Positions 32,526 to 38,057 of a stretch of 64,000 nt of DNA are shown in pieces. The stretch spans positions 1,860,001 through 1,924,000 of the forward strand of contig NC_014654.1 of NCBI RefSeq assembly GCF_000166415.1, written 5' to 3'. Below the pieces are notes generated by a model, which saw only the letters and a list, made by a program, of their open reading frames with translations, ran no database searches and was not told the origin of the DNA. The stretch comes from Halanaerobium hydrogeniformans. Lineage in GTDB: Bacteria; Bacillota; Halanaerobiia; Halanaerobiales; Halanaerobiaceae. The stretch's first letter is position 1. Every line of letters begins with the position of its first letter. The translations under genes were made by a program, and so were the position numbers.

Positions 32526-33725
32526 TTATTTCAAAAATATTTTTTCAGCAATATCTAATAATAGATCTTCTTTAAGTTGTTTGGGTAGAAATTTGCTGGT
32601 TTTAATAAATGCAGGAAGTTTTTTTCTTAAAGATTCATCTTTTTTATGATAGTTTTTCTTAACTAAATTTAAAAGTTTTTCAAAATGATATATTTCAAAT
32701 CTATTAATTTTATTATTTTCTGCTAACTTTTCTAAGAGAACAATCATTATTTTGGAATAATCCGCTTGATAATCTAACTCTAGCAGATTAACTAGTTTGG
32801 GTATGAAATTTTCAAAAAAAGAACGTTGATGAGGTTCCTCTGGAAAAGAAAACTGTCTTAACAATTCTTTTTTTTCTTCTTTATTAATTTCCAAAAGATA
32901 ATTAATAAAATAATTTTCCTGTTCAGGTCCTGTTATATAATATTTTTTACCAAGTAAATTTTTAAAATATTTTATTGTATCATAATAACCCATTTGAATA
33001 TTTCGCCTGGCATTTTCCTGATCAAAATTCAACATTCTCCCTAAATCTTCAGATGGATTAATATATATTATTTCTGTATCTTCATCTTCTTTTTTTTCAA
33101 TATCTCCCAGGCCATATGTTCTAATAGCAATTAGTTTTTTATAGCCTTTATCTAAAAGTGTTTTTATAGGCAAATTATTGTAAAAACCTCCATCTATTAA
33201 AATCTTTCCATCTATTCTTTCCAATTTAAAAGCAGGAAGATAGGAACTTGCAAGAATATAATCTATAACTTTACCCTCAGGAATATCTTCTAAAAATAAT
33301 TCAAGTGGTTTAAAATCACTTAAAGAAAGTGTTACAATTGCAAAATCAATATCTGAACTTCTTAATAATCGCTCATCAATATTTTCTTTTAAAATAGATT
33401 TTAAATAAGAGCTGTCAAGCCCTTTATTTTGCAGTAACTCTTTTGCCTTAGCTATAAAATAAGAGATATTATCCTGGTTAATAGTAAGGTTAAGTAATTG
33501 AGACAGATATTTATCTTCTATATCTAAGACCTGTGAGGTAGAAACATTATACCAATAATCATAGGCCTCATCAAGTTTGCCCTGGACATACATTGCTCCA
33601 TTCATCGCACCGATCGATGTCCCTGCAACAGCAGAAATTTTAATATCTAGTTCTTCAATTGCCTTTAAAGCACCAATGTGATAAGCACCTTTTGCACCAC
33701 CACCCTCAAGCACTAAACCATACAT
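32526..33725 (-). CDS. Patatin-like phospholipase family protein
   Basis: 399 aa. The patatin domain is complete: oxyanion loop EGGGAKGAYHIGAL (about 7-20), nucleophile elbow GTSIGAMNG (about 40-48) and the dyad aspartate in LIDGGFYNNLP (about 176-186). The C-terminal 170 residues are helical and lysine-rich with no recognised domain. No signal peptide is seen, so it is probably a cytoplasmic or membrane-associated lipid acyl hydrolase. ATG 33725 follows GAGGAGG and a good promoter lies about 35 bases upstream. Confidence 0.9.
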   Translation of the reverse strand: MYGLVLEGGGAKGAYHIGALKAIEELDIKISAVAGTSIGAMNGAMYVQGKLDEAYDYWYNVSTSQVLDIEDKYLSQLLNLTINQDNISYFIAKAKELLQNKGLDSSYLKSILKENIDERLLRSSDIDFAIVTLSLSDFKPLELFLEDIPEGKVIDYILASSYLPAFKLERIDGKILIDGGFYNNLPIKTLLDKGYKKLIAIRTYGLGDIEKKEDEDTEIIYINPSEDLGRMLNFDQENARRNIQMGYYDTIKYFKNLLGKKYYITGPEQENYFINYLLEINKEEKKELLRQFSFPEEPHQRSFFENFIPKLVNLLELDYQADYSKIMIVLLEKLAENNKINRFEIYHFEKLLNLVKKNYHKKDESLRKKLPAFIKTSKFLPKQLKEDLLLDIAEKIFLK

Positions 33726-33756
33726 TTTTTTAACCTCCTCAGTTTAAACAAATTAT

Positions 33757-33784
33757 ATTATAGATCTTTTTGTAAAAAAATCAA
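33757..33784 (-). promoter_or_regulatory. Predicted promoter of the patatin-like gene
   Basis: Minus strand TTGATT (33784-33779), 16 bases, TATAAT (33762-33757). Confidence 0.6.
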
Positions 33785-33793
33785 TTTATCTAA

Positions 33794-33904
33794 AACTGCC
33801 AAGAAAGCTCCATCCGACGCGAAGCTAGTATCTCTTTTGATGCAAATCTTGGTTTTGATTTAGGTGGAGAGGTTCACAGTCTTGATTCAATATTCTTTAA
33901 ATGA
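33794..33904 (+). pseudogene. Possible coding relic without a start codon
   Basis: Part of the 414-bp gap between the patatin gene and the kinase-like gene. A 36-codon stretch is open between two stops (TAA 33791, TGA 33902) with no ATG, GTG or TTG plus ribosome binding site. It reads NCQESSIRREASISFDANLG... and is locally richer in G+C (CATCCGACGCGAAGC) than its surroundings. The alternating polar/hydrophobic pattern resembles a beta-strand protein fragment. It may be the remnant of a lost gene; it could also be chance. The rest of the gap (33905-34139) is AT-rich and holds only the weak kinase-gene promoter. Confidence 0.25.
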
Positions 33905-34068
33905 TTCTAGTTATATTAATATTTCTTTAGAAATACATATTTCCCTTTAAAAAGTATAATTTAAACAAAAAAATCTATTTACACAACTTATTGTACACTA
34001 CTCTGTTATTAATTTGAAACTGCTCAAATTATTGATTATTTTTATTTTGTATTCAAATAACTGATGAT

Positions 34069-34078
34069 ATGATATAAT
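34069..34078 (+). promoter_or_regulatory. Weak extended -10 promoter for the kinase-like/HPRT-like pair
   Basis: TGATATAAT with TATAAT at 34073-34078 and TG one base upstream of it. TTGTAT at 34047 is too distant (20 bases) to be a standard -35. It lies about 62 bases before the gene. Confidence 0.35.
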
Positions 34079-34139
34079 AAAAATAAATAAAGCTTGATAT
34101 TGCTGGCTACTCCAAAAAATATAATTTTAAAGAGGGAAG

Positions 34140-35096
34140 GTGAAGAGCTTGCAAATTATAACAATTTCTCGCCAAACAGCAAGTGGAGGTAATGAAATTG
34201 CTGAACAACTTGCCAAAAGATTAGGTTTTAAATTAATTAATCGTGATTATGTTTTAGAAAAATGGCTTCCAGATGTAGCTGATGACCATCAATTACACAT
34301 GTTAAAACAGAGTCGCAAATTTTACAACCGTAGGATTGAGCAAAAATATGGACTAGAAAAAGATCTTACTTTCGCTGGTTTTATTGAAAATAGATTGAGA
34401 GATTTAGCTAAAGAAAAAAATCTACTCATTGTAGGCTTGGGAGCTCAAGTTATATTCAAAAATCATTCTAGAGCAATTCATATTAAAATAGTTGCTTCCG
34501 ATGAATATAGAGTTAATAAAATTTCAAAAAAATATGGTCTTAAAAAGGAGCAGGCTGAAAGAACTATTGAACTTAGTGACCGCAAAAAACGCCGCTATGT
34601 TTGGCAGGTTCATGAAGTAGACTGGTCTGACCCAACATTATACCACTTAAGTATTAATAGTGCTGGTATCAATCTTGAGCAGGCCTTAAGTATATTAAGC
34701 AACTTAGCAGATTTTAAAAAAGAAAGCCCAGAAGCTCTTAATGATAAAAATAATGAAGAAGAACAGAAAAAAGAGCATAATTTTGCTCATCCCAGTGAAA
34801 AAGAATTTGCTAAAATACTCGATATGCATCATATAAAATGGGAATATGAACCAACTGAATTTCCTCTTGAATGGGATGCTGAAGGAAATATAAGCATGGG
34901 ATTTCGACCAGATTTTTATCTAACCGAATATGACACATATATTGAATTAACGACTATGAAAAGAAAATATGTAACTGAAAAAAATAAAAAAGTTAAACTA
35001 CTTAAAGAAACTTATCCCCACATAAATGTAAAAATTGTTTACAAAAAAGATTTTCACACTTTAGTTGAAAAATTTAACTTTAATAAAGGAGAATAA
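34140..35096 (+). CDS. Cytidylate-kinase-like domain fused to a PD-(D/E)XK-like domain
   Basis: 318 aa, two-domain protein. Residues about 1-195 resemble the cytidylate-kinase-like family: P-loop region ISRQTASGGNEIAEQLAKRLGF, then DYVLEKW, LIVGLGAQVIF, and SDRKKRR...VDWSDPTLYHLSINSAG. A charged linker (about 200-218) leads to a domain of about 100 residues with HPSEKEFAKIL (helix with Glu), GFRPDFYL and YIELTTMKRK, arranged like a PD-(D/E)XK nuclease core (E, D, ExT). From memory, this second domain is found next to or fused with HPRT-like proteins in other phyla. The substrate and activity are unknown. The first P-loop glycine is replaced by Thr-Ala. Start GTG 34140 (GAGGGAA upstream) or TTG 34149. 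A 3-bp gap separates it from the HPRT-like gene. Confidence 0.75.
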   Translation: MKSLQIITISRQTASGGNEIAEQLAKRLGFKLINRDYVLEKWLPDVADDHQLHMLKQSRKFYNRRIEQKYGLEKDLTFAGFIENRLRDLAKEKNLLIVGLGAQVIFKNHSRAIHIKIVASDEYRVNKISKKYGLKKEQAERTIELSDRKKRRYVWQVHEVDWSDPTLYHLSINSAGINLEQALSILSNLADFKKESPEALNDKNNEEEQKKEHNFAHPSEKEFAKILDMHHIKWEYEPTEFPLEWDAEGNISMGFRPDFYLTEYDTYIELTTMKRKYVTEKNKKVKLLKETYPHINVKIVYKKDFHTLVEKFNFNKGE

Positions 35097-35099
35097 AAA

Positions 35100-35630
35100 A
35101 TGGAGACAGACAAAAATTTAGGCAAAATAATAATTAGTGAAAAAGAAATCTCAGAAAAAGTAGAAGAATTGGCTACTCAAATTAATAAGGATTATAAGGA
35201 CAAAGAAATTATAATTGTAAGCATTCTCAAAAGTTCTCTCTATTTTATGACAGATTTGACCCAAATGCTTGAAATTCCTTTAAAATTAGATTTTCTAGAA
35301 ATCAGTCATTACAGTGATGAAGATGATTCTGGAATAATCAGGGTTACAAGAGATTTAGAATTCAGTATTGCAAATAAGGAAGTCCTTATAATAGAAAACA
35401 TTATAAGGACCGGGCTTACACAAAGTTATTTACTTAGAAATTTAAAATCCAGAAATCCAAAAAGTTTAAATATTTGTACTTTCCTCAATAATACAGAGAA
35501 AAAATTAGTAGAATTACCTGTTCATTATAGTGGTTTTGAAGTTAAAGATGAATATTTAGTCGGGTACGGTTTAGATTATAAAGAAAAATATAGAAATTTA
35601 CCCTATATTGCAGAATATAATTTTAATTAA
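35100..35630 (+). CDS. HPRT-like protein with degenerate PRPP-binding motif
   Basis: 176 aa with the fold-defining segments of hypoxanthine-guanine phosphoribosyltransferase: [30 protein letters not shown] and the C-terminal [17 protein letters not shown]. The active site is altered. The PRPP motif usually reads VLIVEDIID[ST]G; here it is [11 protein letters not shown], so the second acidic residue is Asn and the catalytic Asp is Arg. The LKG loop is LKS, and the DKP-like segment is NNT. The protein is probably not a normal purine-salvage enzyme. It is the second gene of a tight pair with the kinase/nuclease-like fusion (3-bp gap) and overlaps the end of copA by 4 bases on the other strand. 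Confidence 0.8.
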
Positions 35631-38023
35631 CTTAAACTAATATCCTTATTTTTCAATCTACTTGAATTTAGAATAACGCTGATTGAACTTACTGTCATAG
35701 CTGCTGCTGCAATAATAGGATTTAATAAACCTAAAGCTGCAATTGGAATTGCTATAGTGTTATATATAAAAGCCCAGAATAAATTTTGCTTGATTGTAGA
35801 AAATGTATATCGGCTTAATTTTAAGCCTGAAACTACAGAACTTAACTCACCGCTTACTAATGTAAGATCTGAAGACTCGATGGCGATATCTGTACCAGTT
35901 CCAATTGCAATTCCAACATTTGCCTGTTTTAATGCAGGTGCATCATTTATTCCATCACCTACCATAGCCACTATCTCTCCTTGAGACTGCAATTTTTTGA
36001 CCTCATTTGACTTTTGTTCAGGTAATACTTCAGAAATAATTATTTCTATTCCAACCTGATCTGCAATAGCTCTAGCGGTTCTTGCATTATCACCAGTTAT
36101 CATAATAGTTTTTAGACCCATATCTTTAAAAGCTTTAATTGCTTTTACAGAATCACTTTTTATAGTATCAGCTACAGCAATAATCCCTACAGCTTTCCCA
36201 TCATAAGCAACTATCATTGCAGTTTTTGCTTCTTCTTCTAATTCAATAATTTGATCTTTTAATTTTTTGATATCAATTTCATTTAACTCCATTAATTTTT
36301 GATTCCCAACTAAAATCACTTTGTCATTTAACACTGCTTTAATACCTCGACCTACTACTGCATTAAATTCTTCAGTTTCGTTAAGCTGTATTTTTTTTTC
36401 TTTTGCCTTTTTGACAATGGCATCAGCAAGTGGATGCTCTGAAGATTTTTCGGCACTTCCAGCAAGCTTTAGCACCTCTTTTTCATCAAAATCACCAACA
36501 GTTATAATATCTGTTACTTCAGCTTCCCCCTTGGTTATTGTACCAGTTTTATCAAGGACTACAGCTGTAATATCTTTCATTGTTTGTACTGCCTCTCCAT
36601 CTCTAATCAATACTCCATTTTCTGCTCCTTTGCCTGTACCAACCATCAAAGCAGTAGGAGTTGCTAATCCAAGTGCACATGGACAAGCAATAACTAAAAC
36701 AGCTATACTGGCAAAAACAGCAGTAGTAATTTCTTGAGTACCCCCGATAATAATCCAGGCCAAAAAAGTTAATATTGATAAAATAATTACTGTAGGTACA
36801 AAATATGAAGTTACTTTATCAGCAAAAGCTTGAATAGGAACTTTTGAGCCCTGAGCTTCCTCAACCATTTTAATTACTTGAGATAGAAAAGTATCTTCAC
36901 CGATTTTAGTTGCTTTTACTTTAAGAACACCCTGTTTATTAATAGTACTACCAATGACTTCATCACCTTCAAGCTTTTTAACTGGCATAGATTCGCCTGT
37001 AGCCATTGATTCATCAACAGAACTTTTACCTCCGATCACTTCACCATCAGTCGGGATCTTCTCACCGGGTTTAACAAGCATAATATCTCCAATTCCAACT
37101 TCTTCTACTGGAATCATTTTTTCTTGATCACCAGTTATTACTCTTGCAGTATCAGCTCCAAGCTCCATCAGTTTCTTTATTGCCTGTGAGGCTCTTCCTT
37201 TAGCTTTACTTTCTAAATATTTACCTAACAAATGAAATGCCATAATACCAGCAGCTAAACCAAAGAATCTATCAAGATCAAAGAAAAAGGATGAAACACC
37301 ATATGCATAAGCAGATAAAGTACCAAGAGTTATCAAAACATCCATATTGGCACCACCATGCTTAATCGAATTAAATGCACCTTTATGGGTCTTATATCCC
37401 AGTATAAACACTACTGGAAAGGCAAGAGCAGCCTCAATTAAAGCCTGGAAAAAAGGTGGTACTGGCAAACTGAACCCCAAAAGTGAGCCGAACATTAAGA
37501 TAAAAACTGGAATAGTTAAAGCAAAAGCATATATCAATTTTTTTTGAGCCATCTTCATTTCTTGATTTTCATGTTCAACCTTATCTTCGGCGTCAGAAAT
37601 ATCATCGCTTTCCACATCATAACCTGCCTCTTTTACTGCTTTAATAATATCTTTTTTTTCTGTTAAATCACCAAAATATTCAACATGTCCTTTTTCAGTC
37701 GCAAAGTTTATATTAACTTCTATAACTCCATCAATTTTCTTAATACTTTTTTCAATTGCCTGAGCACAAGCTGTACAAGACATCCCCTTAATAGATAGGT
37801 CAAGCTTTTGTTTTTTAACTCCATAACCACTATTAACTACAATTTTTTCAAGTTCAAAAATAGAAATTTTATCTTCATTAAATTTTACGGTAGCTTTTTC
37901 AGTATTAATATTTACATTTGCCTCAGTAATACCTTCAGTATTTTTTAAAGATTTTTCAACACTCTGAGCACAGGCAGCACAACTCATACCTGTAACTGCA
38001 AAAGTTATTTTTTTATCAGACAT
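35627..38023 (-). CDS. copA: Copper-exporting P1B-type ATPase CopA with two HMA domains
   Basis: 798 aa from ATG 38023, which has AGGAGG ten bases upstream; an in-frame ATG at 38050 would place that site inside the gene. It has two N-terminal metal-binding domains ([10 protein letters not shown] near residue 13, [10 protein letters not shown] near 83), eight membrane helices, the ion-binding CPC ([11 protein letters not shown]), the phosphorylation site DKTGT, the SEHPLA motif and the hinge GDGINDAPA. The CPC class exports Cu(I) or Ag(I). The promoter carries an operator shared with a second copper locus at 53.4 kb. The two genes overlap convergently with the HPRT-like gene. Confidence 0.96.
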
Positions 38024-38057
38024 TGCTATAATACCTCCTGTTTTTCTCATAAATTAT

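Follow-up and report, generated by a model that had tools for sequence, protein, structure and literature searches.

Residue losses suggest that a second, partner-linked HPRT copy in Halanaerobium and many related bacteria senses or regulates and does not recycle purines

In the Bacillus anthracis HPRT, Hpt-1, the side chains of E99 and D100, together with the backbone of D103–T107, hold the ribose and the 5'-phosphates; the guanine oxygen is bound by K131, and R165 makes contact with the 3'-phosphates of ppGpp (excerpts of PMC6783271). A phosphoribosyltransferase (PRT) domain with no enzymatic activity is found in Bacillus subtilis PurR, where it binds PRPP and ppGpp. Its position 207, a Lys that is Arg in some homologues, contacts the 3'-phosphates of ppGpp, T211 holds the 5'-phosphates and a D203-to-Ala change makes PRPP competition ~100-fold weaker (excerpts of PMC8789054). 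A third comparison is the human HPRT paralogue PRTFDC1 (2jbh), for which the excerpts of PMC3144895 leave enzymatic activity unsettled and allow for regulation through PRPP.

We analysed a window of 64,000 nucleotides from Halanaerobium hydrogeniformans (NC_014654.1, positions 1,860,001 to 1,924,000), a genome assembled as a single contig of 2,613,117 bases. It contains an HPRT-like gene with the following features, in window coordinates.

35100–35630, + strand: HPRT-like ORF, 176 aa, ATG start, intact frame
35085–35091, + strand: AAAGGAG, RBS-like sequence for this ORF, read from the sequence and lying within the 3' end of the preceding gene
35394–35420, + strand: altered PRPP loop ENIIRTGLT (E99, N100, R103, T104–T107)
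35490–35492, + strand: Asn131, aligned with the purine-O6-binding Lys of canonical HPRTs
35550–35606, + strand: retained C-terminal pocket region, 19 residues with D159 and R165, from alignment

The assignment of this ORF to the HPRT family is beyond chance by profile and sequence comparison, as the original prediction had proposed: it scores 181.6 bits against TIGR01203 (curated cut-off 150), E = 1.9e-21 against Pribosyltran and E = 2e-46 in a phmmer comparison with the Thermoanaerobacter HPRT 1r3u. An AlphaFold model of the protein, built from 22 alignment rows, was poor (pLDDT 57.2) and was left out of the analysis. The genome also carries a second, normal hpt downstream of tilS, with the motifs VEDIIDTGRT and LLDKPDRR, so the search for an intact copy that had been proposed as a check gave a positive answer. 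PRTFDC1 likewise is a paralogue kept alongside a normal HPRT, although it is eukaryotic, has no gene pairing and bears other substitutions.

The numbering of the window protein coincides with that of B. anthracis Hpt-1, which allows residues to be compared directly. Its loop codons at 35394–35414, GAA AAC ATT ATA AGG ACC GGG, encode E99-N100-I-I-R103-T-G, exactly as first reported. Alignment to solved bacterial HPRTs gives LKS for LKG, ENIIRTG for EDIIDSG and LNNT for LDKP, so that Asp100 is Asn, the catalytic Asp103 is Arg and the purine-binding Lys131 is Asn; the alignment bears out both the earlier reading of DKP as NNT and the retention of VGYGLDY and YRNLPY. The bacterial HPRTs 1r3u and Hpt-1 thus share E99, the TGLT loop, D159, R165 and the VGYGLDY/RNLPY signature with the window protein and differ from it in having Asp100, Asp103 and Lys131; the window gene, for its part, does not lie with tilS and is paired with the partner gene described below. 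Because E99 and the phosphate-binding T104-G105-L106-T107 (the TGxT 5'-phosphate loop) are kept, the PRPP loop is altered rather than destroyed. "Destroyed" was an overstatement: D159 and R165 also persist, and PurR binds PRPP with Lys or Arg at the corresponding position, according to the PurR excerpts cited above. That correspondence, of PurR K207 to HPRT D103, was made by spacing (D203/K207/T211 against E99/D103/T107). The window protein resembles the regulatory PRT of PurR in having a basic residue, Arg103, at the Asp position together with a kept phosphate loop. PurR differs in carrying the PF09182 DNA-binding domain on its own chain; this domain is absent from the HPRT-like protein and its partner, and PF09182 had no match anywhere in the window's genome.

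The loss is shared by every carrier in the order. Among 38 genomes sampled, 17 have the partner gene with a second HPRT directly downstream and 21 have neither, a single HPRT being present in each of these. A housekeeping HPRT was also seen in 15 of the 17 carriers, the two without a visible copy being assemblies of 83% (G019) and 62% (G036) completeness. Position 103 is Arg in 14 carriers, Asn in two and Lys in one, and is Asp in none; position 100 is Asn in 11, Asp in five and Ala in one; Lys131 is missing from all 17. A single damaged allele is excluded by these 17 of 17 members, no pair in the order having an intact EDIID motif. The same gene order with intact EDIID, named in advance as evidence for such an allele, does exist, but in distant lineages only. 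The ORF is unbroken in all 17, and close Halanaerobium pairs gave dN/dS values of 0.045–0.068 for the HPRT-like gene and 0.064–0.091 for the partner, using an experimental NG86 code; in several of the pairs dS approached or exceeded 1. The proposed alignment with close relatives thus found the loss fixed and under selection, and a recent pseudogene was dismissed at dN/dS of about 0.05–0.07. That the gene is a decaying duplicate, as its lost catalytic residues might imply, is hardly credible and is already contradicted by the intact ORFs, the low dN/dS and the conserved adjacency.

The partner, which we call KN, ends 3 bp before the HPRT-like start.

34140–35096, + strand: KN, 318 residues, a kinase-like domain and a C-terminal nuclease-like domain; listed start GTG at 34140
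34155–34661, + strand: Cytidylate_kin2 (PF13189) domain, KN residues 6–174, E = 2e-35, 123 bits against a cut-off of 28
34776–35069, + strand: T7-endonuclease-I-like (PD-(D/E)XK type) domain, 'ELTT', with E-L-T in place of E-x-K

TTG at 34149 is the likelier KN start, since the relatives with which KN aligns begin MQIITISR. The AlphaFold model of KN (pLDDT 82.3) matched 3hdt (Z 22.8) and 3fdi (Z 22.3) in a fold search; these Cytidylate_kin2 proteins resemble the N-terminal domain, the matched span being residues 1–196, the kinase part, to which KN adds the ELTT domain. The P-loop has SGG in place of GK[ST] and so lacks its Lys, which is absent from 3hdt and 3fdi too in the printed alignments. 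The ELTT domain matched Phage_endo_I at E = 8.9e-4, and the ELTT profile (A3) matched T7 endonuclease I (3cae) at E = 4.7e-6. It has the D and E metal ligands of that enzyme, and the acids concerned (the D of PDF and the E of E-L-T) are invariant in the profile, whereas Thr stands at the position of the nuclease Lys: E-[LIV]-T-[TIV] occurs in 86 of 86 distinct ELTT domains. The solved T7 endonuclease chain 2pfj, presumably an inactivating mutant, has Ala there. The ELTT domain may be unable to cut; alternatively, the next helix, which holds two invariant Lys in the profile, may supply the missing residue. Two distant relatives with intact E-I-K or E-L-K (L022:1378-2532 and L138:2226-3494) are longer proteins with no adjoining HPRT and are possible active cousins of the domain.

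A nuclease-like domain raises the question of an immunity-type or conflict system, its nuclease being under the control of the HPRT-like protein, and the patchy distribution of the pair within the genus (8 of 11 relatives) would suit one. We consider this very unlikely, given the Thr at the nuclease Lys position in all 86 domains and the outcome of the defence and phage searches. PADLOC models gave no match for the HPRT-like protein and only a weak, 22-residue match for KN (E = 1.8e-4), and the neighbours of the pair at 41 loci included no conserved mobile or defence genes. No relative of the partner was found in phages or, with partner profile A1, in IMG/VR; the ELTT profile A3 retrieved from IMG/VR a single viral contig, matched weakly at 26% (L169, IMGVR_UViG_3300033148_005555). 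Phage cargo was dismissed on the same searches.

Clustering the neighbours of the 41 loci also gave no further gene common beyond close relatives, and a larger operon was rejected. In the window, a copper-type P-ATPase gene (35627–38050) adjoins the pair, and at several Halanaerobium loci (L012:158-928, L054–L058 and L073) the adjoining gene is one that we take to be of the sirtuin (Sir2-like) family. Upstream, between a patatin-like gene (− strand, ending at 33725) and KN, one frame of the interval 33780–33960 reads ASISFDANLGFDLGGEVHSLDSIFFK up to a stop and resembles the tail of a beta-barrel-type gene that has otherwise been lost; 68 bases of this interval recur, at 81%, in the corresponding place in the genus relative G012. 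An Rfam scan of 33000–36500 returned nothing, and a promoter scan around the pair gave 14 hits against 11.6 expected in shuffles, an uninformative difference.

The pair extends well beyond the order. In a sample of the phylum, KN matched at E ≤ 1e-39 in 38 of 398 genomes, the next matches, near 1e-19, being of kinase type; further samples had KN in 10 of 72, 6 of 10 and 56 of 97 genomes. Of the 38, the 35 outside the order all exceeded the HPRT cut-off, 31 with at least two HPRT matches and four (G189, G270, G316 and G402) with one. An HPRT lies directly downstream (same strand, within 400 bases) of 83 of the 86 distinct ELTT domains, which were defined by a 60-bit threshold; E-x-K nucleases, among them the ones from L022 and L138, fall below it. 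The domain is fused to HPRT in one further case, and two (L178 and L187) have none downstream: the L187 genome (G566) has a paired-type HPRT apart from KN, on another contig (L216), and the L178 genome (G567) has a housekeeping-type HPRT only. The pair is thus not strictly obligatory.

The fusion, Thermomicrobium roseum WP_012643103.1, places an ELTT domain and then an HPRT domain in one ORF, which is annotated as hpt. Although a single case, it is the best sequence evidence for our suggestion that the HPRT-like protein contacts the C-terminal domain of its partner. The original prediction that the protein had been co-opted for a role with its 3-bp neighbour gains from this strong tie and from the fusion counterpart; the co-option did not begin with the loss of Asp. 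In paired motifs, the Asp of the EDxxD[TS]G loop is kept in 49 of 84 and lost in 35, so that Asp103 loss is, by these sequences, limited to some lineages.

We compared residues across 59 paired copies, 43 housekeeping copies and the fusion, a set that excludes the partial copies L072, L091 and L102, counts L021 as paired and enters G019 and G016, whose protein tails are identical, once. The phosphate pocket is almost invariant in the paired copies: G105, D159 and R165 occur in 59 of 59, E99 in 58, and position 107 is Thr in 52 and Ser in seven. D100 is present in 48 and D103 in 25, against 43 of 43 housekeeping copies for each, and 11 paired copies have Gly at position 103, as we take PRTFDC1 to have. 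K131 is absent from every paired copy and present in all 43 housekeeping copies; the fusion keeps it too, with Asn at 103. In the paired copies conservation is poor in loop II, the loop that shuts over the active site. The LKG-to-LKS change noted at the outset is true of the window but is confined to its own sub-clade, Gly being present in 48 of 59. By these counts, no paired Firmicutes copy retains purine recognition, the window's lineage and its neighbours have lost the general base as well, and the phosphate pocket stays. Since Lys131 is absent from every paired copy, even those with an intact EDIVDTG, specificity shifted first or independently of the loss of Asp.

A quick tree separated the paired copies and the fusion from the housekeeping copies by a starred branch (SH-aLRT 96); without the fusion, the 59 paired rows are set apart by a branch whose support is 74 and which is not starred. 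Lys131 changes once on this tree and Asp103 three times. Many independent losses of Asp were not upheld, as a tree in which the 34 Asp-less Firmicutes copies are held as one clade was better (p-AU 0.664), and one loss in Firmicutes with one in Thermomicrobium fits equally well.

The same counts bear on whether the paired protein is an enzyme of altered specificity, still transferring phosphoribose but to a base other than a 6-oxopurine, with the kinase-like partner handling the nucleotide product. The sole loss common to all paired copies is the purine-recognising Lys, the intact loop persists in 49 of 84 motifs and the partner has a nucleotide-kinase fold. Moreover, type I PRTases of other specificity encoded elsewhere in this genome have Ala (UPRT) or Thr (ComFC) at the position of Asp103, which suggests that this Asp marks 6-oxopurine chemistry and not PRPP binding as such. 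Against this, Arg occupies the general-base position in the window's clade, and Asp100 is replaced there by Asn or Ala in 12 of 17 members. Nor do the kinase domains of the partners have a P-loop Lys, and those of L134 and L135 align with the kinase profile only from position 111, over its last third. For the motifs that keep Asp103, which come from outside the order, a changed-specificity enzyme is as likely as a sensor, and this explanation is a better fit to such lineages than to the window's; overall we judge it rather unlikely. In L134, L135 and L160 the kinase domain is worn to at most its last third, and the ELTT domain is kept along with an HPRT having intact EDxIDTG, a pattern of loss opposite to that of the window.

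A subunit that only scaffolds or stabilises and binds no ligand, in line with the scaffolding named in the original prediction, is a minority possibility that we take seriously. The catalytic and base-contacting residues are gone in the window's clade, and the gene pairing and the fusion also count in its favour. Retention of TGLT, D159 and R165 in 59 of 59 copies, or nearly so, points the other way, although constraints of the fold could explain part of it.

Our preferred reading, at a probability of roughly 45%, is that the HPRT-like protein serves as the ligand-sensing subunit in a complex formed with KN. It is favoured because of the analogy with PurR, and it draws support from the persistence of pocket residues in the 59 paired copies while the catalytic and base-recognition residues that the 43 housekeeping copies have are going. 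The fixed pairing, the fusion, the low dN/dS and the branch that divides paired from housekeeping copies speak for it as well. A duplicated HPRT would have lost 6-oxopurine recognition with Lys131 and become a subunit of an old two-gene module; in the window's lineage, the change of Asp103 to Arg would also have removed the general base and that of Asp100 to Asn a ribose-binding acid, with the pocket for a phosphorylated ribose remaining under selection. Such a protein would no longer make IMP or GMP and would instead bind a phosphorylated metabolite, perhaps PRPP, (p)ppGpp or a nucleotide. It may contact the nuclease-like domain of KN and tune KN, much as the PRT domain of PurR acts on its DNA-binding domain, the output being the binding of nucleic acid by a domain that is probably unable to cleave it. 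Two observations qualify the choice of ligand. The poorly kept loop II and the loss of Asp100 argue against tight PRPP binding in the window's clade, and guanine-type binding would need another contact, given that Lys131, the guanine-oxygen contact for ppGpp in the Hpt-1 excerpts cited above, is lost. A more specific proposal, which we regard as improbable, is that KN and the HPRT-like protein form an undescribed nucleotide-sensing switch doing the job of PurR outside Bacilli, in which a PRT with a basic residue for the catalytic Asp would respond to PRPP or (p)ppGpp by adjusting how a non-cutting ELTT domain binds nucleic acid, as two genes in Firmicutes and one protein in Thermomicrobium.

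The residue pattern says that the window copy is not a working hpt. Because paired copies score above the HPRT cut-off, they are likely to be annotated as working hpt genes, as the Thermomicrobium fusion is. The component families are already known, and what appears new is their combination: we found no description of the pair in the literature, within a search whose coverage of subscription journals and preprints was thin. Some copies in the paired clade have the catalytic Asp and others lack it, so the path from enzyme to regulator is testable on living homologues. Our analysis suggests that the second HPRT copy of Halanaerobium and many related bacteria senses or regulates and does not recycle purines; if the sensor reading is true, it would be a PRPP or alarmone sensor of new architecture.
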